DNA of 64,000 nucleotides from Haloplanus ruber (GTDB lineage: Archaea; Halobacteriota; Halobacteria; Halobacteriales; Haloferacaceae). Under the pieces are notes generated by a model. That model was not told the origin of the DNA. It saw only the letters and a list, made by a program, of their open reading frames with translations, and searched no databases. The translations under genes and the position numbers were made by a program. Below, piece by piece: positions 32,327 to 56,145 of the stretch; within the stretch, counting starts at the first letter, position 1; each line of letters begins with the position of its first letter. The stretch spans positions 1-64,000 of the forward strand of contig NZ_JANHDK010000004.1 of NCBI RefSeq assembly GCF_024494725.1, in the 5' to 3' direction.

Positions 32327-33520
32327 ATGACTGACCATGCACACCCCCGCGTCTGTACCGTCGACGACCCGATCGGCCGCCCGTTCGAAGCGTTCCTCGA
32401 CAGTAAAGCGGTGACCGGATCCGGCGAAACACGATCCGGAAAGTACGCGAGACAGCTTGAGCGTGTCGTCGGCGACTGGATCGAGCAAATGAACAACCGT
32501 GGCGTCACAACGTTTGGCGACCTTGATGGACAGGCCATCGCTCAGTGGACGGACGAGTATCTCGCCCGGCGTGTGCGTGCGCGCAATTCAGGTGCTTCTA
32601 CCCCCGGCATTTCAGCTGCAACTGCTAACGTCTACTACGACTACGTCTCGTCCTACCTCGAGTACTGTCGCACGTGGGAACTCCTGGACGAGAACCCGGC
32701 CGCGACAGCCGTCGCCCGCGATCCTCTTCCCGATCGGCCCTCCCGCCAAGCGAGCGAGCAGCAGTTCTGGAGTCCACAGGAACGGATGGTTATCACGCGA
32801 TATGTCCGCCAACGTGCTGGTGAAGCTATCGACGAACGTGGAGCCGACGCACTGAACGAAGTCCGAGACCACGCACTCATCTACACGATCGGCTATTCCG
32901 GCGCTCGAGGCGCTGAAATTCTACGCGTCCCACGTGGGGACGATCGCCGCCGAACAGGAGTCACATGGGGAGATATCGATCTCGATGAGGGGACGCTTCT
33001 CGTCCTTGGTAAAGATCAAGACTATGAGCAGGTCCCGCTCACCGACAAGCCGCTCCCTCCGCTCCGCCGGCTTCGAGAAGTCCTCAACCCCGCTTCCGAT
33101 GAGTGGCCCATCTTCACGACGTCTCACACCCCCACGCTGTGGTCGAGTGCTCGCGACCAACTCTCCGCGCGAGATCACACCGCGGCGGCAGCCGAAGAAC
33201 TGCTTGAGTCGTTCGACCAACCACTCCAAGTGTACCGCGCCCACGACCTCATCCCACCAGCGCTCACGACAGAAGGTGCCCGGCACCTCTTGCAGAAATT
33301 CACTGAGGCGGTTGGGATTGAGGTCAGTGGCGACAAAGACTATCTTACGCTCCACGGTGCCCGCCGGGGCGTTGGCGAACAGTACTACCGCGAAGAGTCG
33401 CCGGCAGCAGCCCAGCGCGCCCTTCGACACGACGATCCACGAACAACCAGCGAAATGTATGCTCACATCGAAGCGAGTGAACTCTCTGACGTCGGCAGCG
33501 ACATTTTCGACGGCGAGTAG
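32327..33520 (+). CDS. tyrosine recombinase/integrase
   Basis: A 397-aa protein with an N-terminal SAM-like core-binding domain (about residues 20-130: TANVYYDYVSSYLEYCRTW) and a C-terminal catalytic domain. Catalytic residues visible: Arg in YSGARGAEIL (about 195), the H-x2-R in LHGARRGVG (about 342-345), a His in LRHDDPRTTSEMY (about 366), and the nucleophile Tyr in EMYAH (about 378). All are present, so it is probably active in site-specific recombination. It is followed 83 bases on by the RdfA-Sph cassette, suggesting that they move together. Confidence 0.85.
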   Translation: MTDHAHPRVCTVDDPIGRPFEAFLDSKAVTGSGETRSGKYARQLERVVGDWIEQMNNRGVTTFGDLDGQAIAQWTDEYLARRVRARNSGASTPGISAATANVYYDYVSSYLEYCRTWELLDENPAATAVARDPLPDRPSRQASEQQFWSPQERMVITRYVRQRAGEAIDERGADALNEVRDHALIYTIGYSGARGAEILRVPRGDDRRRTGVTWGDIDLDEGTLLVLGKDQDYEQVPLTDKPLPPLRRLREVLNPASDEWPIFTTSHTPTLWSSARDQLSARDHTAAAAEELLESFDQPLQVYRAHDLIPPALTTEGARHLLQKFTEAVGIEVSGDKDYLTLHGARRGVGEQYYREESPAAAQRALRHDDPRTTSEMYAHIEASELSDVGSDIFDGE

Positions 33521-33603
33521 CCTACTCGTTCCACCGTCCACCGTCCGAAGCGTGGCACTTGCAGGGAGATATACTTTTCAGTCAGGGTGCTAAATCTAAA
33601 CTG

Positions 33604-34383
33604 ATGTCAGATGACTCTAACAAAATCCCTGTGGCACGAAGAGGCGGGCCAGCTGGGTATTCTGGCGAGTTATTAGATGGGACACCGGGAGACTACAAAC
33701 CTTGTTGTAAAGTCGGTCGGATGGCTGATAAATACGATCTAACGACTGGCGTTGGTACTCTCGATAAGGATATCCATAAAGAACTACTCGCAAAATGGCT
33801 GGGGATTAACGAATATCCGGGGACGTCCGTTCGAGGGCTCGTCGATTGGTTCAATCAAAAAATTATGCAGCTATTTTATCTGGAGCACGACCGCAAAGAC
33901 ACTTCCCCACGACTTTCCGTGGAGTATGAAGCGTTTGTCGGTGACGATGAGGCCCGTCGCGTGTGGATTGAGGAAGAACTTGAACAAGATGGGATCGACA
34001 CTGACGAACTCGATGATGATTTTGTCTCTACCGCGACGATGTACCGCCACCTAACCAACTGCCTTGGCGCAGAGAAGGAGACTGATTCAGATTCAGATTC
34101 AGATTCGGGTTCCGACTGGGAACGACGAAACATCGAGATTCTACGTGACCAGGCAGCTGACAAGGTCACAGATACCCTCAAGTCGTGGGATAACAAAGAT
34201 GTCCTCCCTGGTGGGAGCGACGCAGAGGTTTTCGTGGAAGTCGACCTCACCTGTCCGGTGTGTTCGACGAGTGTTCCGATCCGACAGGCTCGCCAACGCG
34301 GGTATGTTTGCGAAGACCATCTTGGATCGCACGCAGACATCGATGAAGACACTGACGAAGACCTCGAGGCAGAGGTCGAATAA
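33604..34383 (+). CDS. RdfA-family protein 1
   Basis: A 259-aa protein. The RdfA hallmark CCKVGRMADKYDL (about residue 33) is followed by LLAKWLGINEYPGTSVRGLV and DWFNQKI. The C-terminal part carries TMYRHLTNCLG, a low-complexity (SD)n tract, and a zinc-ribbon-like end (CPVCSTSVPIRQA, then YVCEDH). In Haloferax volcanii a protein of this family is a rod-determining factor encoded next to an archaea-specific SMC-related gene. The same neighbours occur here. The biochemical role is unknown; the Cys pairs suggest zinc and nucleic-acid or protein binding. Confidence 0.72.
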   Translation: MSDDSNKIPVARRGGPAGYSGELLDGTPGDYKPCCKVGRMADKYDLTTGVGTLDKDIHKELLAKWLGINEYPGTSVRGLVDWFNQKIMQLFYLEHDRKDTSPRLSVEYEAFVGDDEARRVWIEEELEQDGIDTDELDDDFVSTATMYRHLTNCLGAEKETDSDSDSDSGSDWERRNIEILRDQAADKVTDTLKSWDNKDVLPGGSDAEVFVEVDLTCPVCSTSVPIRQARQRGYVCEDHLGSHADIDEDTDEDLEAEVE

Positions 34384-34421
34384 GAAGACGATGCAAATTT
34401 TTAGTCGCGGGGACGCAGTAT

Positions 34422-35063
34422 GTGCCTGTGAGGAGTTGTTGTAAAGTCGGGGAGGTGGCTAATCGCTATCAGGTTACCGCCCCCGCCGGGTTCGACACGA
34501 TCAATGACTGTCTCGTTGCCCGGTGGCGTGGCGACCAACAATCGCCCGAAACAGGACTCCGCCCGCTCGCTGACTGGTTCAACAAACAACTGCTGAAAGC
34601 CGTCTATTTGCGTCAAGACCGAGTCCAAATCGATTCCCAGGTCGAGTCTGATTACCAGATTCTTTCTTCGGGTGAACACACTGGGAGCGAGTGGGACGAA
34701 TTGCTCAGAGACCTAGCCCAGGATAGAATCGACGGTGAAGCCGTTGCCACCGACTTTGTGTCGTCTTCAACACTTCACCGGCATCTAAAAAACTGCGTCG
34801 GTGCGACGAAAGACGTCGACCCAGATCGGTCTGACTGGGAGCGTGACCGGATCGCTTTCATCTCAGACTGGGCTAAGACTAATCTCTGCGGAGTCCTCTC
34901 CAGCTTGGACACAAAAGGCCAACTCCACGGGGCGGGAGACGTCACCGTCAACCTGAGCTTCTTTCTACAGTGCCCAGAGTGTGGACGGAAGATATCACTC
35001 CGGCAGGCGCTCTCGCAGGGATATATCTGTCAAGAACACCTCCCCGAGGAGGGTGGTGTCTAG
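34422..35063 (+). CDS. RdfA-family protein 2, C-terminus replaced by IS6
   Basis: A 213-aa paralogue of the preceding gene, 38 bases downstream: SCCKVGEVANRYQV, RPLADWFNKQLLKAVYLRQD, STLHRHLKNCVG, and CPECGRKISLRQA with YICQEH. It starts at GTG 34422. The IS6 element at 35052 ends the frame after only GGV. Removing the element and one target-site copy joins codon GAG (35049-35051) to 31 further codons at 35751-35843 and a TAA at 35844. Thus the native C-terminus has been cut, though the recognisable domains remain. Confidence 0.72.
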   Translation: MPVRSCCKVGEVANRYQVTAPAGFDTINDCLVARWRGDQQSPETGLRPLADWFNKQLLKAVYLRQDRVQIDSQVESDYQILSSGEHTGSEWDELLRDLAQDRIDGEAVATDFVSSSTLHRHLKNCVGATKDVDPDRSDWERDRIAFISDWAKTNLCGVLSSLDTKGQLHGAGDVTVNLSFFLQCPECGRKISLRQALSQGYICQEHLPEEGGV

Positions 35064-35742
35064 ATAAGCTGGTTCCATGCGAAGGCAAATGCTTGTAACC
35101 AATTTTCAGCGGTACTCGGTTCGACGTGGCTGAACGTATTTGAAAATTGGTTAGTTCGTCGTTTTACTTCTCGAAAGACACGTTCGACGGCATTCCGATT
35201 CCCATGTGTAACATGCTGGAATCGTAGCCCGTGTCGGTGACAGGCGGCCTGCAACCACGGTGCACCGTCGACGAGAAAGACTGCATCGTCTACCTGATGT
35301 TTCTCGCGTACTTCTGAGAGAAACATCGAGGTGACCGCGGTGGTTCTCGTCGGATAGAGCCGAACATGAAGCAGGCGGTTGGTATCGGGATCGACAGCAG
35401 CGTACAGCCAATATCGCTCATCATTGAGTTGAATCACAGTCTCATCGACCGCAACGTGATTCGGCTCAGCACCACCTGTCGGCTGTAAATCGGCCTTCTG
35501 TACCCATCGATGCACGGTGCTTCGATGACGATCGACACCCAACATCTCAAGAATCGAGACGGTATCCGAAAGTGATAATCCAGCCAAATGGAGTCGGATA
35601 CCGAGCTTCATCGCCGGCTCGGGTGTCGCCTCTCGCTCCAGAAATTCTAACTCGATGCAACCGCTATCGCCGCTGAGGCGGTCGAACGAGAGCATAATCC
35701 ACTCAAATCTTTGACCGCCTCGTTCCTTATCGCAACGCTACC
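35052..35742 (-). mobile_element. IS6-family element with 8-bp target duplication
   Basis: The ends are GGTGGTGTCTAGATAAGC at 35052 and the imperfect complement of it ending at 35742 (GATAAG and GGT conserved). The direct repeat CCGAGGAG is present on both sides (35044-35051 and 35743-35750), the 8-bp duplication expected for IS6. The insertion is in the 3' part of the second rdfA gene and is probably recent because the duplication is perfect. Confidence 0.9.
35060..35695 (-). CDS. IS6-family DDE transposase
   Basis: A 211-aa transposase with VAVDETVIQLNDERYWLYAA, VFLVDGAPWL and NAVERVFREVKRRT providing the DDE residues. It is full length and seems intact. It belongs to the same family as the transposase at 14432 but differs in many positions, so the two elements are separate arrivals. 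An alternative first codon lies within a few residues of 35695. Confidence 0.88.
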   Translation of the reverse strand: MLSFDRLSGDSGCIELEFLEREATPEPAMKLGIRLHLAGLSLSDTVSILEMLGVDRHRSTVHRWVQKADLQPTGGAEPNHVAVDETVIQLNDERYWLYAAVDPDTNRLLHVRLYPTRTTAVTSMFLSEVREKHQVDDAVFLVDGAPWLQAACHRHGLRFQHVTHGNRNAVERVFREVKRRTNQFSNTFSHVEPSTAENWLQAFAFAWNQLI

Positions 35743-35750
35743 CCGAGGAG

Positions 35751-35846
35751 CCCCCCAAGCAAGATGGCCACACTCCCGAGGCGGACCAACACCCCCCGAA
35801 TGACCGTCAGACTACACTCGGGCAGTTAGACCCAGACGGTCGTTAA
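35751..35846 (+). pseudogene. displaced 3' end of the second rdfA gene
   Basis: These bases continue the reading frame of the gene at 34422 directly after the second copy of the target duplication: 31 acidic codons (PPKQDGHTPEADQHPPND and onward) and then TAA at 35844-35846. They are not translated as part of that protein while the IS6 element is present. Confidence 0.75.
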
Positions 35847-35944
35847 TCGGATCGTCGATCGGCGGTTGCACAACCGCTTCACCCTGTCCATACCCTGATG
35901 AAGGCCCCCATTTAATATGTCTCGATGTCGAAGTGGCGACCATA

Positions 35945-37783
35945 ATGTGGGAACTTGATATCAATAATATCGCTGGCATCCGATCGGGCAGTACGTCCAT
36001 TATCCCCGGCCTCAACGTTGTCCAAGCGTCCAACTTCCAAGGCAAATCCAGTTTTATCGCCGCCCTTCAGACCGTCATGGGAGCCACCGGCCACTACGGT
36101 GACCATCCCCTAACCGAAGGTGCCGACACTGGTTCCGTGACACTACGTACTGACACGGATACGTACGAGGTTACTATCAACCGGGAGCGGGGGGCGAATA
36201 GCCTGAGTGGAACTCCATACCTAACTGATGAGAACGATCAGCTGTGTGCCCGGCTGTTTGCGTTCCTCGGGGAAGACAATCCCATTCGAACAGCCGTTCG
36301 AAACGGCGACGATATCACGGAATTTCTACAAGAACCACTCAATATCGAAGAGATCGATCGCCAAATCAGCGACCTCAAAGATGAACGCCGTGACGTCGAA
36401 AAAGCCCTCACACAGGCCGAACAGGCCGCTGAAAACCTTCCGTCAGCTCAAGAGAGCGTGACCCAAGTTAAGAACGAGTTGGAGGAACTTCGAGGGAAAA
36501 AAGCGGAGTTAGAAGACGCCGCCCAGGAGGACGACGGGGCCGACGACCTCAGTGATGAACTCAGTGAGCGCCGGAGCGCACTTCAAACTCACGAAGAAGC
36601 GATTCAGGCCAAAGAAGATCGGATCGAAGATCTCGAATCGAAGCTCGAAGCGGCCCAAGCCAAACTCGAGGACCTTGATGAACCACAAGAGGTCGAAACC
36701 TTGGCCGAGCTTGAGGAGAAACAAGAGCGGATTGATGTCCTCAGTGGGAAAATAGATCTCTTTGAACGACTCCATCGTGCCAACAAAGCTATTCTTGACG
36801 ACGGTGATATCAATGCTCTCACCGATGTCGAGCGGACCATCTCTGGCGATGAGATAGAGTGCTGGGTCTGTGGGAGTACGACTCCCAGAGAAGAGATGGA
36901 AGCACGGGTCGATCGTATCGACGAGCGAGTGAGCGACCTCAAAGAACAGAGACAGCAACTCACGACAGAAGTTGAGGAGCACCAACAGCGGAAGCGGGAA
37001 GCCGAGGAACAACAGCGAGAATACGAGGAAACTAAGAATAGAATTGGAAGCCTTCAGGTGAAGATTAGTGACACCAAATCAGAGCTCGATGACCGCCGTC
37101 GCAAGAAAGAAACCGTTCAAGCAGAAGTGGACGAGCTCGAACAGAAGGTCGCTGAAGCCCAACACGAACACAACGAGCAACTTGCTGAAATGAAAACCGA
37201 AATCCGAACGGCGGAACGAAAACTCGAATCCAAACAAGAGCAGCTGGACGATCTCGAGGCGAAAAAAGCCGATCTTGAGAATCTCCGCGAAGCGAAGGCA
37301 GAACTCACAGACGAGATTAAAGCGCTTCGCGAAGAAAAGACCGAGACACAGCGCGCTCTTGCGGATGAATTCGATGCTGCAATCAGCGATATCATCGACC
37401 GCTACGCGCCCGGATTCGAAAGCGCCCGCTTCGACGTCAAAACCAACAAAAACGGAGATGTCGAGAAATTTGACCTCATCATTGCCCGCGACGGCCGGGA
37501 GACGACAGTCGATGCCCTCAGCGAGGGCGAAGTAGAACTGATCGGCGTGGCCGTTGCACTGGCCGGTTACCGAGTCTATGACGTTGGCGATCGTGTCCCA
37601 CTCATCCTCATCGATGGCATCAGCCAGCTCGCTTCAGAGCACCTGCAGCAGCTCACCGACTATTTGGAGGATGCCGCGGATGTCCTTGTTACGACGGCTT
37701 ACCCCGAAGCAAGTGGATTCGATGGAGAGATGATCTCCCCAGAGGAATGGGAGATCGTGTCACATGAGAGCGCGTCTGCCTGA
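35945..37783 (+). CDS. archaea-specific SMC-related (Sph) protein
   Basis: A Rad50/SMC-like ATPase of 612 aa. The N-terminal Walker A is ASNFQGKSSF (about residue 27). Long coiled coils (about 135-285 and 310-480) flank a zinc-hook-like CWVCG (about 300). The C-terminal part has the signature LSEGEVELIGVAVALAGY and Walker B LILIDG. The glycine after Asp is typical of this group rather than the usual glutamate. Archaea-specific SMC-related proteins of haloarchaea are linked to cell shape or DNA organisation. The neighbouring rdfA genes match the known rdfA-sph arrangement. An upstream GTG at 35933 is an alternative start. Confidence 0.82.
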   Translation: MWELDINNIAGIRSGSTSIIPGLNVVQASNFQGKSSFIAALQTVMGATGHYGDHPLTEGADTGSVTLRTDTDTYEVTINRERGANSLSGTPYLTDENDQLCARLFAFLGEDNPIRTAVRNGDDITEFLQEPLNIEEIDRQISDLKDERRDVEKALTQAEQAAENLPSAQESVTQVKNELEELRGKKAELEDAAQEDDGADDLSDELSERRSALQTHEEAIQAKEDRIEDLESKLEAAQAKLEDLDEPQEVETLAELEEKQERIDVLSGKIDLFERLHRANKAILDDGDINALTDVERTISGDEIECWVCGSTTPREEMEARVDRIDERVSDLKEQRQQLTTEVEEHQQRKREAEEQQREYEETKNRIGSLQVKISDTKSELDDRRRKKETVQAEVDELEQKVAEAQHEHNEQLAEMKTEIRTAERKLESKQEQLDDLEAKKADLENLREAKAELTDEIKALREEKTETQRALADEFDAAISDIIDRYAPGFESARFDVKTNKNGDVEKFDLIIARDGRETTVDALSEGEVELIGVAVALAGYRVYDVGDRVPLILIDGISQLASEHLQQLTDYLEDAADVLVTTAYPEASGFDGEMISPEEWEIVSHESASA

Positions 37784-37915: not shown

Positions 37916-40900
37916 ATGGCGGATCGGCCGGACGACGATACTCCAGAGCGTGAGGGCCACCTCAGAGAATTCATCGAAGGGGGCGACTCCAAGTCGCCAC
38001 GAGACTCCCACCCAACGCCTGAGGAAACACCATTCGACAAACCACTTTCTGATGAGCATCTGGAGGAGCCAACAACTCCAGACGAAGTAATCGATGGCAG
38101 AGCGACTGCAAGGCCAACAGATGCCCTGCCGAGAGATTTCAACGGGGGTGGCAGGAGTGAGGACATCGATCCAGACTTCCCTGATGATCAAGACAGCGAT
38201 GATCCCGCCGAGTTCATTGAGGAAATCGAATCCAGCCAAGAGTACATCCAGATCACACCTGTCCGTGAAGAAGTGAACTCGGAGACGGTTACGCGGGAGC
38301 TGTACGGGCTCCATCGGTATGGGACCGGCCGGAAGCTCCCACTCGATATGGAGCTCCATATCGACAGCATCAACCCCGTCTCGAACTTCGAGTTCATCAT
38401 CTACAAGCCCGAGGGTGAGGCCCAGTTCAAGTTCTTTCTCGGGCCGGGCGAGCGTGGCGACACCGACTGCGATCGGCTCGAAAGCACCACCCGCTCACAG
38501 TACCCAGAGAACTTCGAATTCGACCGCCAGCAGTTCGATATCACGGACGTCTTCGATGACGTCCCACACATGGTCCGGTTCGAAGGTGTTGAGGAACGGC
38601 GCAAGGACTGGATGACGATGCTCACCCGGTTCGACACCGAAAACATCTCCCGCTCGCCACTCTCAAACCTCCTCGAAACCATCATCCAAACCGACGGCGC
38701 AGTCGTCTTCCAGGTGATCTTCGAGCCCCGTTCGGACTGGTCTCCGAAAGCTCAACGACAGAAAGGTCGCCTCAAGCGAGGTGTCCACACGACCGGCGGG
38801 ATGGTTATCCGGAGCATCCTCGACGCGGTCATCGGCGTCTCTGATGAGGAGCGCCAGGAACGCCATCGGGGCGAGACACCACAGGAGATCGGTGGCTCCA
38901 TCATGGACTCGCAAGTTGGTGGCGACCGGCCAGGAAACAGCCGTATGGGACAGATCGACCTGAAAGACCCCAGCCACACTTACAACGTCTCGCTTCGCGC
39001 AGCTGCCCAATCACAGCACTGTGCAGAGACGCTCCAAGACTCGCTCAATCAGATGAGCGGGCAGTTCTACTCCATCGAAGGGAAGTATCTTGAACAGAAC
39101 GAAAACGAGTACAAGCGGATGCTCAACCACGGGATCACCTACCCGAATGGCTGGGAGATGGTGACCCGGCGAAAGCCCATCCTCGTCTGCAACATCGACG
39201 AACTCGCGAGTTTCATCACGGTCCCTTCGATCGACGCACTCCCGAAAGCCAGCCGTGGCGGCACCGGTGGGAAACCAAAGGCACAATCGGCGCTCACCTC
39301 CCCCAACGAAGAGGTGTTCAAAGAATTCTCGAATGGGATGACCATCGGCCACGCAGTCACAGCCCTCCGTGACGACACCGAAAACGAAAGCGAAATCAGC
39401 GCCATCGACAGCGTGAACCAATGGTGGACCGAACTCAACAAACGGGACGCCCTTTCTCTCTCCGCCGGCGACCTCACACACCACTACATCCGGGCCGCAA
39501 CCACCGGGAGTGGGAAGACCGTCGCAACCCTCAACGACATGCTCTCCACCCACGACAGCCTCGACGGGCCGACCATCCTCATCGATCCAAAAGGTGGGGA
39601 AATGTGCCGGAACTACCTCCGCTGTCACCGCACACTCTTCGGTGATCTCGACGACGTCGAGTACGTCAAAGTCCCCGAAAAAGATGGGCATATCCCCGGC
39701 GTCCCGTTCTTCGACATCCGCCCGCTCACCCGTGGTGCAGGCCGCGAGCGAGAGACCGCTGTCCAAGATATCATCGATCACTATTTCCAGCTATTGCGCT
39801 TCGTCCTCGGCCGAGAGACAGTCGATCAGGCCTTCGTCGCCAACGAGATCCTAACGAATCTCATCAAGGGACTCTTCGACGAAGAACACGGCTCAGACTA
39901 CTTCGCAATCGGGGACCTGCTGCAAGCCGCCCAAGACTTCCAGCACTATGGACGAGAGATCGAGGACGTCGAAAAAGCAAGCCAAGACGACATTCAGAAA
40001 GCACTCCCACCAATCGAAGACGAACAGGTCCGGAGCATCCTCACCTCCCACATGGAGAAAGAAGAACGGCAGTTCATGAACACCACCGACGCCGTCCTCA
40101 ACCGGATCCGCAAGCTCAAAGAGCGGGACTTCATCTGGGATATGCTCTCGTTCGTCGTCCCCGAGGAACACTGGAACGACAACAAGAACTGGTACGAGCG
40201 GTCGGAAGTCTCCATGCTGGATCTGAAAAACATCCTCAACACAAACAAGGTCCTCCTCGTAGATACCGGAGACCTACGCGGGGAAAGTAGCGAAGTCTTC
40301 ACCGTGCTGTTCCTCTCGCATTTGTGGACCTCAGTCCAGTCGATCTGGACGCCAAACGATGATGACTACATCGCGAACGTGATCATCGAAGAGAGTGCGA
40401 ACATCGCCCGCAACGAAATCGTCTACAACGAACTCCTCCCGAAAGGCCGCGAGTTCAACCTCTCGCTGGGGCTCATCATGCAGTACCCAGAGCAGGTCTT
40501 GGGTGAAGATCCTCGAGGGAACAGACGCGCCTACCAAGAGATCCTGAACAACGTCAACACCAAGATCATCGGGAACATCGCGACCGACGACCTGCTTGCC
40601 AACTCCCTCTTCCACGAGGACCTAGACACCGACGAAATCAAAGACCGCATCGCCGGCCTTCGTCGTGGGGAATGGGTCGTCCAGCTGCCCTCAACGGGCT
40701 TCCACAAGCAGAAACCAGAGATTCTCACGCTGAAGCCACTCCCAATCCCACCAGGACACAGCGAAGGCCCATTCAACGTCACACCGATGTCCGAGAGGGT
40801 TCGCGAAGAGAGTCGCGACCGCCACTGTCTCAAACGTGAGGACGAGCTAATCAGGGCAGAGGTAGGAAGCGAGTACATGAATGGAGGCGGCGATAGCGGT

Positions 40901-41653
40901 GGTTCGAGTACCGCTGAAACGAGCATAGATGTAGCCACAAAAGCCAACGAAGTCAACGAAGAATTCGACACCGAGATCGATATCGGGGAACTCAATTTCA
41001 GACACAAGGCATTCCTCGACACGGTCTTCGACGCGCTCACAGGGAATCACGACTCCTACTCGCTGGGGGAACCGATGACGGTGATCCAGTATAACGAACA
41101 TGCTGATGACCTCGTTGACTGGGGGCTCTTAGAGAAGGTAATGCTGCCCCAGAAGAAGCTGTACTACTTCCCGACATCCGCCGCGGAAGTCTTCATGGAG
41201 CGGTCACTCTCCCCAGATGAAGGAGGAGAGTTAGGAGGCGAAAGCCCCAAGCACCTGCTGGGTGTGCGGATGGCCGCCGAAGTCTACAAACAACGAGGGT
41301 ACGATGTCTCGCTCTACCCCGACAGTGGTGATTCAAACAAACTCGACGTCCGCGCAGCAGACACCAAAGCGTCACCGTCCGATCGGAACCAGCTCATCGA
41401 AGTCGAGACAAGTCCCGAGAAGAAAGGCCACGTCCTCGAGGACTACGAGACGCTGAAAGAGGGCTACGGAGACGGCGTCTGGGTCGTGGAGAACACCGAA
41501 GCTGTGAGGACATTGGTCAACAACCTCTCCGAGAAACTCGACGGTTCACCGTCCACCCGTTCGGAGAACGTAGAAAAGATCAGCGAAGAACTCAACGACA
41601 CTGGGGCGGCAGCCGTACACACTCTAAACAGTCTCAGGAAGAAACTCGAATAG
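37916..41653 (+). CDS. coupling-protein-like HerA/VirB4-type ATPase with nuclease-like C-terminus
   Basis: A 1245-aa protein. An acidic N-terminal tail (1-100) leads to a beta-rich part (about 120-330). The motor domain has Walker A in RAATTGSGKTVATL (about residue 530) and Walker B in NVIIEESANIARN (about 822), typical of HerA/TraD/VirB4 DNA-pumping ATPases. Near the end, LGVRMAAEVYKQRGYDVSLY, KLDVRAADT and QLIEVETSPEKKG (about 1118-1165) look like a PD-(D/E)xK nuclease fold (D, then E-x-E). A coupling protein for conjugation or another DNA-translocation job is likely. No relaxase gene is visible nearby. Confidence 0.7.
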   Translation: MADRPDDDTPEREGHLREFIEGGDSKSPRDSHPTPEETPFDKPLSDEHLEEPTTPDEVIDGRATARPTDALPRDFNGGGRSEDIDPDFPDDQDSDDPAEFIEEIESSQEYIQITPVREEVNSETVTRELYGLHRYGTGRKLPLDMELHIDSINPVSNFEFIIYKPEGEAQFKFFLGPGERGDTDCDRLESTTRSQYPENFEFDRQQFDITDVFDDVPHMVRFEGVEERRKDWMTMLTRFDTENISRSPLSNLLETIIQTDGAVVFQVIFEPRSDWSPKAQRQKGRLKRGVHTTGGMVIRSILDAVIGVSDEERQERHRGETPQEIGGSIMDSQVGGDRPGNSRMGQIDLKDPSHTYNVSLRAAAQSQHCAETLQDSLNQMSGQFYSIEGKYLEQNENEYKRMLNHGITYPNGWEMVTRRKPILVCNIDELASFITVPSIDALPKASRGGTGGKPKAQSALTSPNEEVFKEFSNGMTIGHAVTALRDDTENESEISAIDSVNQWWTELNKRDALSLSAGDLTHHYIRAATTGSGKTVATLNDMLSTHDSLDGPTILIDPKGGEMCRNYLRCHRTLFGDLDDVEYVKVPEKDGHIPGVPFFDIRPLTRGAGRERETAVQDIIDHYFQLLRFVLGRETVDQAFVANEILTNLIKGLFDEEHGSDYFAIGDLLQAAQDFQHYGREIEDVEKASQDDIQKALPPIEDEQVRSILTSHMEKEERQFMNTTDAVLNRIRKLKERDFIWDMLSFVVPEEHWNDNKNWYERSEVSMLDLKNILNTNKVLLVDTGDLRGESSEVFTVLFLSHLWTSVQSIWTPNDDDYIANVIIEESANIARNEIVYNELLPKGREFNLSLGLIMQYPEQVLGEDPRGNRRAYQEILNNVNTKIIGNIATDDLLANSLFHEDLDTDEIKDRIAGLRRGEWVVQLPSTGFHKQKPEILTLKPLPIPPGHSEGPFNVTPMSERVREESRDRHCLKREDELIRAEVGSEYMNGGGDSGGSSTAETSIDVATKANEVNEEFDTEIDIGELNFRHKAFLDTVFDALTGNHDSYSLGEPMTVIQYNEHADDLVDWGLLEKVMLPQKKLYYFPTSAAEVFMERSLSPDEGGELGGESPKHLLGVRMAAEVYKQRGYDVSLYPDSGDSNKLDVRAADTKASPSDRNQLIEVETSPEKKGHVLEDYETLKEGYGDGVWVVENTEAVRTLVNNLSEKLDGSPSTRSENVEKISEELNDTGAAAVHTLNSLRKKLE

Positions 41654-41772: not shown

Positions 41773-42399
41773 ATGGCAGACGCAGACACAGAGACTGCAG
41801 AGGAGTCTGCAGCCGACAGTACAGCGACCAGTTCGACCGAGCCGTCGCCCGCCGACACCGAGTCGGGCGCGACCGAGAATACGGACGCCGAACCAAGCGA
41901 CACTGAACCAGTAGAGGAGAACACCGCCGACTCGATGGCCACCGATGCGCTCGTCGAAGAACTCACGGCAGAACTGAGTGAGGAAGGCTACGATGTTTTC
42001 TCGGGACGTGAGATGGTCTCGATCAGACGAAGCGGCCAGATCGCGCCCAACAACGTCGTCTGCCAGGAGTACCTCGAGGGAGCCGAAGCAGTGATGATGG
42101 GCTACTACTCCCGGACGAAGACGATCGCCATCACGCCACTCCCCGAGCAGATCAGCCACCCCAAAGTGTACTCGCTGTTGTGGGAAGGGAACAATGCCGA
42201 GATCAACGCCAGCGGGTTCTTCAAGCACAACGAAATCGAGACCGAACAGACCGTCCGGTACGAGCCAGAGTGGGACGAAGACGTGACCAGTGAGGACCTC
42301 CCCGGCGCGTTGCTCATCGACCTTCGAGAGGACGGCGAAGTGTGGGATCGAGCCGATCCAAGTCCCGACGACGAGCCAGCCGTCGACGCCGAGTCGTAG
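41773..42399 (+). CDS. acidic hypothetical protein (208 aa)
   Basis: The first 60 residues are a disordered Asp/Glu/Thr/Ser tail (AESAADSTATSSTEPSP type). The rest is a compact domain (TDALVEELTAELSEEGYDVF through VYSLLWEGNNAEINASGFF). It follows the large ATPase by about 120 bases and ends about 425 bases before the iteron array. The family is not recognised. It may be a partner of the ATPase or bind the array, but nothing shows this. Confidence 0.6.
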   Translation: MADADTETAEESAADSTATSSTEPSPADTESGATENTDAEPSDTEPVEENTADSMATDALVEELTAELSEEGYDVFSGREMVSIRRSGQIAPNNVVCQEYLEGAEAVMMGYYSRTKTIAITPLPEQISHPKVYSLLWEGNNAEINASGFFKHNEIETEQTVRYEPEWDEDVTSEDLPGALLIDLREDGEVWDRADPSPDDEPAVDAES

Positions 42400-42823: not shown

Positions 42824-43300
42824 AGTATACGGGGACAGCGTGCCAATTCAGGGGGTTTGGTATACAATTCGGTATACGCAGACGGGGGTTGAATTTAGAG
42901 GGGTCAGTATACCACTATCCAGAAGCGTGCCCGGAGCGCCCTCACTTTGAGTATACCAAGACGGCGGCGTGATATACGGTGATCAGTATACGATTAGGTA
43001 TACGCAGACGGCAGTAGAATTGCGGGGACTTGGTATACCACTAATCACCCCGCCAGTTGACTCGATTCGAATGTTGGTATACGCAGACGGCGGCATGATT
43101 CAGGGCGATCGGTATACAATTCGGTATACGCAGACGGCGTCAGGATTCGGGGGGTTCAGTATACCTACTTCGCGAGCGGAGATATTGCCCGGTATACGCA
43201 GACGGCAGTGGAATTCGGGGCATCTACGATACCTTATGAATACTGACTATCATATCTCGGTATACGGGGACGGCGGCCGAATTCAGGGGGTAACGTGTAC
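42824..43300 (+). repeat. eight 42-bp iterons with phased spacers
   Basis: Eight direct repeats, all exactly 42 bp, start at 42824, 42871, 42950, 42997, 43076, 43123, 43191 and 43259. Each opens with RGTATAC, usually GGTATACGCAGACGG, has a GAATTCAGGGG-like centre and ends with GTATAC (GATAC or GTGTAC in the last two). Start-to-start steps are 47, 79, 47, 79, 47, 68, 68, so spacers are 5, 37, 5, 37, 5, 26, 26. These steps are close to 4.5, 7.5 and 6.5 turns of B-DNA. The layout fits cooperative binding of a protein, such as a replication initiator, a centromere protein or a transfer factor. A ribbon-helix-helix-like protein is encoded 700 bases downstream. Confidence 0.85.
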
Positions 43301-44002
43301 GATTCACCCCCCACAGAACGGGCGTCTTTGTTTGGCAACGCGATTAGAGCGCCTTAGAGCATCTCTAATACATCAGAGAATCGGCCGTCGCAGTTTAGCG
43401 GAATTCACACAATTAGGGTTCAGGGAGCCAAAGGAATACAGTAGTCAGTCGCGTAGCGGATTTTCAGGGCGAAGCCGAGCAACGGACGATACAGGCCGGG
43501 GCCGGGGATGAGCGGGAAAGGACTACTACCAGATTTCGGATATGAAGTGGAACCCTGGGTGAGCGCACGAATAGCCGGGGACGAAAAAGAGACGTGAGGC
43601 CAGTGGGAACGCCGGCGACGGACAAGCCAGAAGAGACGGGGACGTCGACGCGGGGTAAGCAAGGGGCGACCGACCACGATCGAACCGAACAGCGCCGGCG
43701 GCGGAAGAAGAACGGAGCGTCGTCGGCGCGACACGACACCGGCGGCAGCGACACGGCGGGGCCCACCACAGCGTCGGCGGCGACGACAACAGCAGTGGGG
43801 GACCGGGCCGCGCAACGCGGTGGGGGATAGGTAATGGTGATGCGACGGGGCGAGCGTTGGTCGCGGATCGCGAAGTGCGGGAGCAGTGTTGCGGGGCGCG
43901 GGTAGTCGCGGGCGTCGCCGGCGACGGCGACACGGAAGTGAAAGATGGGCGGGGCGCGACAACTACTTAGTACCGGGGGCGACAATCGAGCGACGAAGCA
44001 CG
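43301..44002. other. 702-bp non-coding-looking region
   Basis: It spans the end of the iterons to the ribbon-helix-helix gene. From about 43500 it is GC-rich and purine-rich on the plus strand (runs of GGGG and GCGACGG-type). The open frames on the opposite strand are Arg/Pro/Ser-rich and not protein-like. It may carry regulatory DNA or an RNA, but I see no defined structure. Confidence 0.3.
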
Positions 44003-44422
44003 ATGCAGCAGAAGACCCATATCACGTCTCGCGTAGACAGTGATGTCGCCGCGACGATTGAGTCAGTTGCAGAGTATCATGATATCTCGGAGAGTCGGGC
44101 AGTCGAATTGCTACTCCGAGAAGGGCTCCATGCACGGGCGCAACGATACCGAATGGAGCAACTGGACGCGAAGATGGACATCCTCATCGAGAGTCTCGGG
44201 GGCGAGCCGGTTGCACGGGAAGCAGTCAAGGAACGATTCGAACAGGTAACGGATAGAGGCCTTCCGGAGGCAACGTTCGCTGTGGACTTAGAGGAACAAC
44301 CACATCCGTTCTTCCAGTCAACAGGGGACTTCACCGATCGGTCCGCTGAGGAAGCAGTCATCTTGAGGGACCTGCTTGATGAGCGTGAGGATGTCGGAGG
44401 CGTGGGTACGGACGGGGAGTAG
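44003..44422 (+). CDS. ribbon-helix-helix-like DNA-binding protein (139 aa)
   Basis: The N-terminus looks like a ribbon-helix-helix: HITSRVDSDVAATIESVAEY, then SESRAVELLLREGLHARAQR. A helix follows (YRMEQLDAKMDILIESLGG) and then an acidic tail. Proteins of this type bind repeated DNA sites as dimers, for plasmid partition or copy control. It lies downstream of the 42-bp iterons, making it a candidate binder. ATG 44003 is chosen because codons further upstream are Arg-rich and unlike the family. Confidence 0.62.
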   Translation: MQQKTHITSRVDSDVAATIESVAEYHDISESRAVELLLREGLHARAQRYRMEQLDAKMDILIESLGGEPVAREAVKERFEQVTDRGLPEATFAVDLEEQPHPFFQSTGDFTDRSAEEAVILRDLLDEREDVGGVGTDGE

Positions 44423-45160: not shown

Positions 45161-46547
45161 CCCACGCCTAAAGGGGTGGGCTTGTCAGTGGACTCCCGGT
45201 CTGGCCACCGGAGCCGGTGGCAGACGAAAACTCGCCATTCCCGTTCAGTGTCCCTGACTTCAGGGCGACCTGACAGTTCGCCCGTCCAGAACCAGACTTG
45301 AGCCAGTTCTGGACAAGATACCATGCCACGTTCCGCGCCGCATTGTAGTCCGAGTGTAACTCTTTACCACACTTCAAGCACTTGAACTCGTCACCGTTGC
45401 GGTTATCCTCGTGCGTGAACCCGCACTCGCTTTGACTGCACTGCTGACTCGTGTACTGCGGTTTCACATCGTCCACGAGAATGCCGTACTCCTCGGCCTT
45501 GTACGAAATAAACTCCTGTAACTTGTTGAACGCCCACTGCTGGAACTTCTTCCCGTCCGAGATTCGCTCACGAATCTGGGTCAGATTCTCGACGGCAATC
45601 GCGTCACAGTCGTACCGTCGAGCTTCCTGTACGATTGCGAGCGACACTCGGTGCAAGTAGTCCTCGCTCCACTCACTAAACGAGTCACCTATGCTTTGGA
45701 TCGTGAGGTGGGCAGAGCGAGTGCCTGTTTCTTGTAGGGTGCCCCGCTTGCGCTCGTACTCGTCACGCTTGTGGTTCAAGAAGTCCGCGTTGCCGTAGAA
45801 TGCACCCGTGCTGGTGACTGCCAGAGACCCGTCCACGTTGAAATCGACGCCGAGAACCGTTCCGTTCTCGACTGCCGACACGTCCGTGTCAGGTTCTTTC
45901 TGGAAGTTCACGTGCAAGTAGTACTCGCCGTCGCGCTTGTGCAGTGTCGCGCTGTTCTGTTCCCATTCGGGATTGTTCCAGTACGTTTCGAACGGCGTGT
46001 CAGTCGCGTCTTCAGGAAGAACGTATTCGGCGCTCACTCGGTCTTCTGTTGTAGAGAGCGTGCAATAGTCGTCGTAGAACGTCACCGTTCGATTGTCGTA
46101 GACGACGACACTACCCCGGAACGTTGGCTTGCTGATGGATTGGTCTTCCTCGAAGTGCAGTTCCGTGCAGGAGTCAAGTGCTTGCGCGGCGAGTGACCGG
46201 GCGGCTTGGACGTGGTTCGCGGTGAGGTCGGTCTGGCTTCGTACGTCCTCATATGTCGCGTCGTGAAGTTCGTCCTTGCTGTCGATGATGTTGGCTGGGT
46301 TGTCGCTCCAACCGTAGTTGGTGACGTATTGTGCGGAATAACGGAACTGCTCGAACGTCTTATCAAGGAGAGCTTCCTCCTCAGACTCAAGCGCGGTGAG
46401 TTTCACTTCGCAGTTCCGGTTCAGCACTTGGTTCCAACATGATGCTCGTATTATTTAAACCCATCTGCTCAGGGTGGGGAGTTAGGAAGGCTATGCCTGT
46501 GGTTTGTTGCCGTACTGTCGGCTTCCTCCCACGGCTAAAGCCGTGGG
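45161..46547 (-). mobile_element. TnpB-only IS200/IS605-type element
   Basis: Hairpins of the same kind mark both ends: 46528-46547 (CCCACGGC, loop TAAA, GCCGTGGG, a perfect stem) and 45161-45180 (CCCACGCC, TAAA, GGGGTGGG, one mismatch) overlapping the tnpB stop codon. There is no tnpA transposase gene. Exact cleavage points are a few bases beyond the hairpins. A guide RNA (omega/reRNA) would be expected from the 3' end of tnpB through the right end. Confidence 0.7.
45168..46427 (-). CDS. tnpB: TnpB RNA-guided endonuclease
   Basis: A 419-aa protein. RuvC residues: the first Asp in VLGVDFNVDGSLAV (about residue 194), the Glu in AIAVENLTQIR (about 277), and the last Asp in HSDYNAARNVAW (about 363). 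The zinc finger reads CSQSECGF and CLKCG. All catalytic residues are present, so it is probably active. TnpB proteins use a guide RNA made from the element's right end to cleave DNA beside a short motif. It starts at GTG 46427; no closer in-frame ATG begins the family N-terminus. Confidence 0.88.
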   Translation of the reverse strand: MLNRNCEVKLTALESEEEALLDKTFEQFRYSAQYVTNYGWSDNPANIIDSKDELHDATYEDVRSQTDLTANHVQAARSLAAQALDSCTELHFEEDQSISKPTFRGSVVVYDNRTVTFYDDYCTLSTTEDRVSAEYVLPEDATDTPFETYWNNPEWEQNSATLHKRDGEYYLHVNFQKEPDTDVSAVENGTVLGVDFNVDGSLAVTSTGAFYGNADFLNHKRDEYERKRGTLQETGTRSAHLTIQSIGDSFSEWSEDYLHRVSLAIVQEARRYDCDAIAVENLTQIRERISDGKKFQQWAFNKLQEFISYKAEEYGILVDDVKPQYTSQQCSQSECGFTHEDNRNGDEFKCLKCGKELHSDYNAARNVAWYLVQNWLKSGSGRANCQVALKSGTLNGNGEFSSATGSGGQTGSPLTSPPL

Positions 46548-53923: not shown

Positions 53924-54219
53924 TTACTACTCGACAACGGGGGGTGTGACCGTACAGGTGGTCCTCTGGGAGGAAATCGAGACGCTCAGTTACAAGTCGA
54001 CAACGGGGGGTGTGGTCGTTCCGGTGATCCTCTGGGAGGAAATCAAGACGCTCAGTTACAAGTCGACAACGGGGGGTATTGTCCTTCTGGTAGTACTCTG
54101 GGAGATAGGTAGGACGTCCAGTTACAAGTCGACAACGGGGGGTATTGTCCTTCTGGTAGTACTCTGGGAGATAGGTAGGACGTCCAGTTACAAGTCGACA
54201 ACGGGGAGTGGTCGGAACC
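53924..54219 (+). repeat. five 66-bp direct repeats carrying ORB cores
   Basis: The core CGACAACGGGG is found at 53932, 53998, 54064, 54130 and 54196, exactly 66 bp apart. Each is preceded by GTTACAAGT (TTACTACT in the first). Between the cores the sequence is also repeated (TACTCTGGGAG, AGGACGTCCA in units 3 and 4; CTCTGGGAGGAAATC in 1 and 2). It lies directly after orc1/cdc6. The boxes all point the same way, in contrast to the inverted pair at the origin, so this may titrate the initiator or control copy number. The open frame across it on the minus strand is an artefact of the 66-bp (22-codon) period. Confidence 0.88.
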
Positions 54220-54228
54220 ATCTGAGTC

Positions 54229-56145
54229 TCATACGACTTTGTATTGGTCGGTTGAGGGGCTATATACGTCTCCTTTCCTGCGGAGCTGCTCGATGTGGTC
54301 CAGTAGCCTTTCTTTGCTTATACCCTTGCTCCGTGCCCGGTCGACAATGGCATCAATCGGTGCGCCGGCCTCTCCAGTATATTCCTTATCCACTATCTCA
54401 ATCACGTCTCTCACTGATTCTACTACTTCTTCATCATGCTCGCCGCCGTCTTCAGTCGCGTCTTCGCCTTCTCGTCCAGCTCCCGTTTCAACCACATCAT
54501 GGGTGAAATCTCCCTCGACAGGATCAATACCGATATCCTGTAGACAAGATCGGACAACCTTGATTGCACGCTCTGCGTCCTCACGATCGACAGTGTCAGA
54601 GAGCCGCAGTCGAGCGCTTGCCTCTGCCAAGCGAACCATCGCTTCCAATTTCCGACCGGTAACGGGCACCGGGGCGTCCTCGTCAGCGCTTTTCGCACGG
54701 AGCTCAACATAGTAGTCGCGGATCGGTTCTTTCCCCTCATCGGTCAAGGTCGGATAGTAAGTCTCTCTCGCGTACGAAATGTACTCCCGGAGGAACTCGG
54801 GTTCGACAATGGGGGCAGCAGTTCGGGCGGCCTCCTCAACTTCAGACTGAGTGGGTTCGGACTCCACCGTGTTCTCGCGGCGGGTGTCGCGCTCTCTCTC
54901 GCGATTCGTTTCGAGAATCCGTTCGGCAGCCTCAATATCTTCCTCCGGATCTGGTCGATCTACGACTGTGAATACCAGATCGAACTGCGATACTGTAGTC
55001 GGATCAATATCGATCTGCTCCGCAATCGGTTCATACTGATCGAACCGGCCATACTTCGGCTTCGAGGTAGCAATTAGCCCTGTTTGACCCTGGTTCGCGC
55101 CAGCTTTGTCGGAGGGTATCTCCGCGGTGAATGCCCTCCGCAGTTGGTCGAGCTCGTTCTCGTTGGCTTTGCCGAACTGCGTAACAACAGCGTGGGACGC
55201 ACGTGTTAGCGTATCAACAGAGTACTCAGATAGCCTTCGAGACGAAGAGTCGTGTGGACTCTTTTGTGTCGTCAACAGTCCTTTGCCAGATGGCCCACCG
55301 GAGAGGTGAACTCCCGAAGGAGCCACCTGTGCTGCATACTCTGCGATATCCGTAGTCAACGTCCCCGAATCATGGACTAGCGAAATGTGTATCGCACCCC
55401 GAATAGACCGGCCGTTCTCCCGTGGTTTGTGTATCCCACCCACAAGCGAGAGCAGCAGCCCGAATTTCTCCATCTCATGTCCATATACCGATGGAGCAAT
55501 TGATTCGATTAGGCTATCGTATAGTGGCCCGAACGTGCTCTGCTGAATTGGTTCCTGATCGTTGCTTCGCTTCTCATTAACAAACTCCTCAATCCTTTCG
55601 CGTGACTCTGAGGGTACTTCAGGACTCTCTTCGTCCGAGGGACTTCCAGCTGTATCCTCGGTATACACCGACTGTCGCATGAGATCCTCAATGTGGGCGC
55701 TTGACGGGAGATCGGCAAGCGAGACTGACTCCACGAACTGCTCGTCATCTTCATCCGTCGCTTGGTAGAGACGATACTGCTCCCCATTAGTCAGAAGCCC
55801 CCATTCGGCCCCGAACAACCGCATATACCGCCGGATCTGCGCTCCGCTGTTTGTAATATTCCGGCCAATCTGTTTGGCCTCGACGACAGCGTGGACTCCG
55901 TCTGGACCGAACAGGGCATAGTCTGCCTGATCGTCGAATCCTTCCTCACCCGAATATTCCAGCAACACCTCACTATTGTCGTAGACGCGCCATCCGAGAG
56001 TTCTAATGAACGGCGTCACAATCTTTGCTTTCGTATTCGTTTCGTCGAGGCTTTGCCCCGTCGCAACAACCCCCTTCGTCACAGAGACAAATTCCGAGAG
56101 CGTGCCATATGCGCCTCCCCTCGGCCCTTCGGTCATATTTTCCAC
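54229..56145 (-). CDS. HsdR_N-type nuclease domain fused to an ATPase-dead MCM AAA+/winged-helix region
   Basis: A 638-aa protein. Residues 20-130 look like a type I restriction HsdR_N domain, with a PD-(D/E)xK core: Asp75 in QADYALFG and Glu89-Ala-Lys91 in VVEAKQIG. Residues 200-545 align with the MCM AAA+ module (SIAPSVYGHEMEKFGLLLSL; PKYGRFDQYEPIAEQID; KLEAMVRLAEASARLRL), and 573-638 with the MCM winged helix. The ATPase residues are changed: Walker A GDPGTGKS is HDSGTLTT (Lys264 to Thr), Walker B IDE is VTQ (322-323), sensor-1 Asn is Lys362, and the arginine-finger SRFD is SQFD (Gln387). The MCM N-terminal OB domain is absent. It may act as an inactive helicase-like subunit that targets a nuclease to replication complexes; that is inference. 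Confidence 0.8.
   Translation of the reverse strand: MENMTEGPRGGAYGTLSEFVSVTKGVVATGQSLDETNTKAKIVTPFIRTLGWRVYDNSEVLLEYSGEEGFDDQADYALFGPDGVHAVVEAKQIGRNITNSGAQIRRYMRLFGAEWGLLTNGEQYRLYQATDEDDEQFVESVSLADLPSSAHIEDLMRQSVYTEDTAGSPSDEESPEVPSESRERIEEFVNEKRSNDQEPIQQSTFGPLYDSLIESIAPSVYGHEMEKFGLLLSLVGGIHKPRENGRSIRGAIHISLVHDSGTLTTDIAEYAAQVAPSGVHLSGGPSGKGLLTTQKSPHDSSSRRLSEYSVDTLTRASHAVVTQFGKANENELDQLRRAFTAEIPSDKAGANQGQTGLIATSKPKYGRFDQYEPIAEQIDIDPTTVSQFDLVFTVVDRPDPEEDIEAAERILETNRERERDTRRENTVESEPTQSEVEEAARTAAPIVEPEFLREYISYARETYYPTLTDEGKEPIRDYYVELRAKSADEDAPVPVTGRKLEAMVRLAEASARLRLSDTVDREDAERAIKVVRSCLQDIGIDPVEGDFTHDVVETGAGREGEDATEDGGEHDEEVVESVRDVIEIVDKEYTGEAGAPIDAIVDRARSKGISKERLLDHIEQLRRKGDVYSPSTDQYKVV

Follow-up and report, generated by a model that had tools for sequence, protein, structure and literature searches.

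The oriT regions of F, R388 and R64 combine genes for an RHH accessory protein and a coupling protein with repeat-rich, non-coding DNA that contains hairpins. The haloarchaeal locus described in this study resembles these regions in that an RHH gene and a coupling-protein-like ATPase gene lie beside repeat-rich, hairpin-bearing non-coding DNA, but the archaeal ATPase is only weakly TraD-like and none of the proteins scanned was named as a relaxase. In Streptomyces, the clt loci of pIJ101, pJV1, pSVH1 and pWTY27 also consist of repeats adjoining the gene of an FtsK-like translocase, and in pWTY27 transfer depends on the DNA next to the tra gene, to which TraA binds (PMC3583192). The clt repeats in that account are 5-14 bp long, whereas here eight units of about 42 bp are arranged with fixed, phased spacing; the haloarchaeal locus also has an RHH gene and a hairpin element that is conserved. 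The origin of SNJ2-type pleolipoviruses, in the relevant passages of PMC13107129, likewise combines a conserved hairpin with a nearby binding site that varies from element to element, but it has one inverted repeat with an adjoining Rep gene instead of an octameric phased array. Haloarchaeal origins adjacent to orc1 share repeated boxes in intergenic plasmid DNA with this locus (PMC3528665, origin passages), but the window array lies away from orc1, differs in sequence and keeps a fixed geometry of eight. The putative archaeal centromeres of SegB and AspA are also palindromic binding sites on archaeal replicons, but each comprises a single palindrome or a pair located upstream of its own segregation genes; the 2016 review that describes them counts the features of archaeal centromeres among the questions still open (PMC5120986).

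The movement and segregation of haloarchaeal plasmids are poorly known. By comparing related replicons we show that an array of eight direct units and an element 95-98 bp behind it make up one conserved cis-acting locus, carried by haloarchaeal plasmids and integrated elements, in which the geometry of the array is conserved far better than its sequence. The locus is a defined, portable cis element carried by plasmids of cultured strains, and a phased array makes the physical prediction that spacing changes only by whole turns, so its function is directly testable.

Results

The repeat array and its sequence

The window, meaning the whole 64,000-nucleotide stretch of DNA analysed here, is the start of contig C4 (360,117 bp) in a haloarchaeal genome of 3.28 Mb. 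A repeat search of the window bore out the preliminary description of eight repeated units (Table 1), recovering eight same-strand copies with steps of 47, 79, 47, 79, 47, 68 and 68 bp. These had been called exact 42-bp iterons framed by GTATAC palindromes. The length stands if one flanking base is included, the outermost bases of the two palindromes enclosing 41 bp and the arm starts within a unit lying 35 bp apart, but the sequences are not exact, with 67-80% identity to the reference copy. Likewise, GTATAC is intact in 14 of the 16 arms, the two exceptions being the degenerate right arms of units 7 and 8. Over the whole 64-kb window GTATAC occurs 19 times against 5.5 expected by chance, a count reached by none of 100 shuffles, and 14 of these occurrences fall in the array (within 42825-43265). 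A second eight-unit array (L219), with arms that differ from those of the window array, is located at about 205690-206350 of the same contig; it has its own conserved element and an orc1-like gene about 5 kb off. Contig C4 may be a fusion of two replicons.

Table 1. Coordinates of the locus and its neighbouring genes in the window. Relatives were counted by profile searches within 8 kb of 36 arrays, several of these loci being cut by contig ends.
Feature	Position	Strand	Remarks
TraD/HerA-like ATPase gene	37916..41653	+	1245 aa; points at the array
Gene of no known family	41773..42399	+	upstream of the array; relatives near 16/36 arrays
Array of eight direct units	42825..43300	+	arms GTATAC, core AGACGGC..GATT..GGGG
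Left-arm starts of the units	42825, 42872, 42951, 42998, 43077, 43124, 43192, 43260		
Replicon-specific motif of about 13 nt, first copy	43323..43336	+	CGTCTTTGTTTGGC; seen in the sequence
Inverted repeat	43354..43368	.	TTAGAGcatCTCTAA; inside the conserved CTTTAGAG..CT(A/C)TA block
Replicon-specific motif, second copy	43386..43399	+	CGTCGCAGTTTAGC; sequence and alignment of relatives
Conserved downstream element	43401..43556	+	begins GAATTCACACAATTAGGG
Element hairpins	43450-43458; 43468-43476		CGC-GTA-GCG; GGC-GAA-GCC
Nested complementary arms of the element	43415-43421/43550-43556; 43440-43446/43521-43527		
T-poor non-coding tract	43557..44002	+	between the element and the RHH gene
RHH-like gene	44003..44422	+	downstream of the array; relatives near 17/36 arrays

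Related loci among haloarchaeal replicons

The first related loci were reached through relatives of the genes that flank the window array, and they held similar arrays with other arms. A sequence model of two neighbouring units (R1; 97 positions, derived from 28 pairs) had matches in 19 of the 170 family genomes searched and, across the class, in 26 of 391. The matched replicons include plasmid p117 of Halorubrum sp. BOL3-1, the megaplasmid and 57-kb plasmid of H. ezzemoulense Fb21, and the 54-kb plasmid of Halobacterium noricense; the locus is also carried by the 349-kb plasmid of H. hubeiense, by pHALXA01 of Halopiger xanaduensis and by pHsi204 of Haloarcula sinaiiensis. No annotated feature lies under the matches on the named plasmids in the PLSDB gene table, which is itself incomplete. 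The complete plasmids p117, the H. noricense 54-kb plasmid and pHsi204 have one copy of the array each. The 57-kb plasmid of Fb21 has two, and in one of them an ISH30 transposase gene separates the two parts of the element, so a single intact copy may be enough. L225 and L236 each contain a pair of arrays, complete or partial, that lie 1-3.5 kb apart and have a conserved element each.

A search by title and abstract, with subscription papers and preprints outside its scope, returned no published description of the locus, and the passages found by keyword in PMC3528665 and PMC10818511 do not describe it. Phage records gave no match, and three viral contigs that contain the core string of the conserved element match neither R1 nor the element model described below. 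The exact 14-mer GTATACGCAGACGG is found in at least 120 stretches of viral contigs, with a single match each among the matches listed, and was set aside as chance.

Spacing is conserved and sequence is not

In eight sampled arrays, the units share 40-50% identity with those of the window. A chain fit blind to spacing was applied to 38 arrays, of which 30 had all eight units above zero. Among these full arrays the short steps measured 47 or 48 bp at step 1 in 29 of 30 and at steps 3 and 5 in 30 of 30, while step 6 was 68 or 69 bp in 28 and step 7 was 67 or 68 bp in 29. The order of steps across arrays is 47/48, X, 47/48, X, 47/48, 68/69 and 68 bp, and the long step X takes values of 67-69, 78-80, 89-90, 101 or 109-110 bp, that is, in increments of about one helical turn, the value of 78 coming from L239 and that of 101 from L171. 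Exceptions include L223, with 79 bp at step 6, and L240, with ten units; some arrays have lost units (L178, L236b), and that of L222 runs into a contig end. The array of L238 in genome G179 has eight units with steps of 47, 67, 47, 68, 47, 65 and 47 bp, stands without the conserved element and possibly belongs to another subtype.

This constancy does not extend to the DNA between the units. Long spacers of equal length in the window, L167 and L169 are mostly identical at chance level only (0.15-0.36), the last spacer standing above the rest at 0.64 and 0.45. Spacer length in the array is thus conserved without conservation of spacer sequence. The preliminary description had proposed that selection maintains the geometry of a protein array here, and this claim is now strongly supported, since the search of related replicons for the unit and spacer pattern found no homologous arrays with random spacer lengths. 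That the units drift in sequence while their distances are fixed or changed by whole turns points to a conserved protein machine assembling there. We regard the array as a clear example from nature in which the geometry of DNA is under selection and the sequence of the spacers hardly at all.

The steps in the window had also been described as close to half-integer numbers of turns (4.5, 7.5 and 6.5 at 10.5 bp per turn), and this holds across the relatives. The six step classes (47, 68, 79.5, 89.5, 101 and 109.5 bp) fit a period of 10.5 bp with a resultant of 0.93 and a best period of 10.54 bp; against random classes, p is about 0.001 at 10.5 bp and 0.004 over 10-11 bp. The test gives moderate support, because the step classes are few and the step list was entered by hand, with the second step of L239 taken as 79 bp (78 bp in the later fit) and two of the arrays entered incompletely. 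Since all steps amount to about n+1/2 turns, neighbouring units would face opposite sides of B-DNA.

A structured element at a fixed distance behind the array

The sequence GAATTCACACAATTAGGG or a variant of it starts 95-98 bp past the last array unit in 33 of 36 loci; at L225b and L226, where the last unit escaped the scan, the element lies 600 bp from the array start, just as in sister arrays. Alignment of the relatives reveals in the gap between array and element a CTTTAGAG..CTATA block and a motif that occurs twice on the same strand and is replicon-specific in its first part; L240 has a third copy of this motif, inverted, inside the element. The alignments (A2 and A3) comprise 32 of the 36 loci, leaving aside the near-copies L229, L232 and L236b and the element-less L238. 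In these alignments the two nested arm pairs of the element show 88.1% pairing, and in four pairs both partners have changed; none of 500 shuffles reached this result, and slid controls paired at 23-54%. The second nested helix, as aligned, is mostly unformed in about 9 of 32 sequences, and the second arm pair of the window appears by eye to be shifted in register relative to most relatives. The CGC-GTA-GCG hairpin also shows compensated changes, and RNAalifold predicted one short hairpin only. The covariation fits a folded strand, either RNA or DNA, and inverted protein-binding sites could covary too. From the element start, the fraction of T over 500 nt is 0.10 in the window.

A model of the conserved element alone (R2) matched 27 of the 391 class genomes. 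Two of these, G235 and G346, had been missed by R1 and used in no model, and both carry eight units upstream, with steps of 47, 89, 47, 89, 47, 69 and 68 bp in G235 and 47, 110, 48, 109, 48, 68 and 68 bp in G346, at 100 and 99 bp from the element, respectively. G153, another R2 match missed by R1, was already among the first known loci. The core string of the element occurs in 25 genome contigs, 14 of them haloarchaeal; the 11 others, which served as a negative control, contain no array, and three of them gave weak partial element scores of at most 16 bits.

Neighbouring genes and candidate readers of the arms

Gene maps of the neighbourhoods were drawn with a home-made gene caller. The ATPase gene was detected within 8 kb of 15 of the 36 arrays, and in all 15 cases it lies upstream of the array and points at it. 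Full-length relatives (E=0, at least 65% identity) occur in 10 of the 170 family genomes, all 10 array-positive, and closely similar partial matches in three more, of which G111 is array-positive and G046 and G108, with long partial copies, are array-negative. The ATPase was not found in 50 of the 54 kb of the array-bearing H. noricense plasmid, in 50 of the 57 kb of the array-bearing H. ezzemoulense plasmid, or in the whole genome of some array carriers, such as G142. It has no Pfam match and no sequence relative in PDB, and its one NCBIfam match, to TraD, is weak (E 0.0013, far below the cut-off); the TraD label draws on this match and on Walker-type motifs. The wider family is broad, being matched in 108 of 170 haloarchaeal genomes with lengths mostly of 1200-1550 aa, and a spacing template together with the element model found no array downstream of its more distant members (0 of 20 loci).

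RHH matches with E below 1e-15 come from 12 genomes, all array-positive, and three weaker matches come from array-negative genomes. Matches to the 41773 protein with E below 1e-14 come from eight genomes, all array-positive (G153 through the element model), and 8 of the 10 genomes with weaker matches are array-negative. AlphaFold modelled the 41773 protein poorly (mean pLDDT 52) and the RHH protein in part (63). A trio of genes encoding a DUF7344 protein, a protein of unknown family and an Mrr_cat nuclease is located about 2.4-6 kb downstream of 16 of the 36 arrays (for example L229, L230 and L252).

Three partners had been suggested by the preliminary description, and our results argue against each in that role. 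L224 and L228 encode RHH proteins that share their first 52 residues exactly, although the arms of the two arrays are of TAATGA and AATAAG type, so the nearby RHH protein is probably not the reader of the arms; it could read the array core, or nothing here. The 41773 protein is hardly an essential partner, as its gene is missing at many arrays and interrupted or fragmentary in several loci. Four intact arrays (G130, G121, G047 and G140-C20) speak against tight linkage to ParA, as neither ParA nor Orc1 was detected in 35-54 kb around them (E 1e-5, two queries each). Because none of the three linked proteins is found at every array, the arm reader may be a host protein or the product of another gene of the replicon.

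Discussion

The clade of array-bound ATPases, its constant orientation, the RHH gene and the persistence of arrays away from ParA and Orc1 lead us to favour, tentatively, the reading of the locus as a cis-acting nucleoprotein platform, most likely a clt/oriT-like transfer origin handled by the ATPase encoded upstream. Copies of a protein would occupy the eight units, each on the face of the helix opposite to its neighbours, the cognate protein being chosen by the replicon-specific arms and 13-mers, and the resulting stack would position a DNA-processing event at the invariant hairpin-bearing element. Plasmid transfer would start at the locus, the TraD/HerA-like ATPase encoded just upstream would handle the DNA, and the RHH protein would act as an accessory protein; where the ATPase gene is missing, the transfer machinery may be supplied in trans. 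It is possible, if doubtful, that such an octameric stack on a helical ruler is a transfer origin of haloarchaeal plasmids and integrative elements, with the arms as an address code, the element as the processing site and the array-bound ATPase clade in its service. The weak points of a transfer origin are the arrays that lack any ATPase and the finding that no protein scanned was named as a relaxase.

A replication origin or copy-control site of non-ORB type, with the units as initiator-binding sites and the hairpin element as the place of strand opening or nicking, appears rather unlikely to us. Direct repeats with replicon-specific arms would suit such a site, as would the invariant hairpin element, the single array copy of the three complete plasmids and the presence of an orc1 gene 2-13 kb from the array in five named plasmids, and the bipartite SNJ2 origin, with its variable binding site and conserved hairpin, offers a parallel in the passages concerned (PMC13107129). 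In the window, however, array and orc1 are 9 kb apart rather than adjacent, as an ORB-type orc1 origin would be, and the window orc1 has tandem repeats of its own at 53924-54210, which supports the earlier remark that the array is unlike the repeats near orc1. An iteron origin would have direct repeats bound by a plasmid-encoded initiator, and here the direct repeats are present but no initiator gene was found beside them. Orc1 went undetected around the four arrays named above, and cumulative skews take no consistent turn at the array in three complete plasmids. The repeat adjoining orc1 has a 66-bp period in 4.3 copies with GGGGGG strings and is possibly an orc1-adjacent origin; a gene for an MCM-like protein with an HSDR_N-type N-terminal match (54229-56145) also lies beside orc1.

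We judge it unlikely that the array is a centromere, that is, the parS of a ParA/RHH-type partition system in which half-turn phasing builds a superstructure moved by ParA. Three complete array plasmids do carry ParA with a small partner gene, as does the window, and co-resident arrays differ in their arms, for example the two on contig C4, as incompatibility groups would. Yet a type Ib parS should lie close to parA and the RHH partner, and the window parA is 13 kb from the array with no GTATAC cluster in its neighbourhood; ParA was undetected around the four intact arrays, and the constant neighbours of the array are other genes. To our knowledge, parS sites do not usually include a structured element at a constant distance.

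Quite improbable, in our view, is an operator function, by which the array would control a promoter in the CTTTAGAG block for a structured, T-poor non-coding RNA starting near the conserved element. The fixed distance between array and element, the long-range pairing with its four doubly changed pairs (0 of 500 shuffles), the compensated hairpin and the scarcity of T, which makes up 7-18% of 500 nt at 30 of 32 loci, would fit such an RNA, but single-sequence folds are no stabler than shuffles (z of -0.43, -0.19 and 0.92), Rfam gave no match, and inverted protein sites in DNA can covary as well. An attachment site was dropped because array and element stay joined in the large chromosomal contigs of L230, L235 and L240.

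Between a tyrosine recombinase gene (32327-33520) and the ATPase gene in the window lie two RdfA-family genes (Pfam PF21811) and the gene of an archaea-specific SMC-related protein (NF045487), together spanning 33559-37783. Beyond the RHH gene, a TnpB/Cas12f-like gene (Pfam Cas12f1-like_TNB) is present at 45168-46427.
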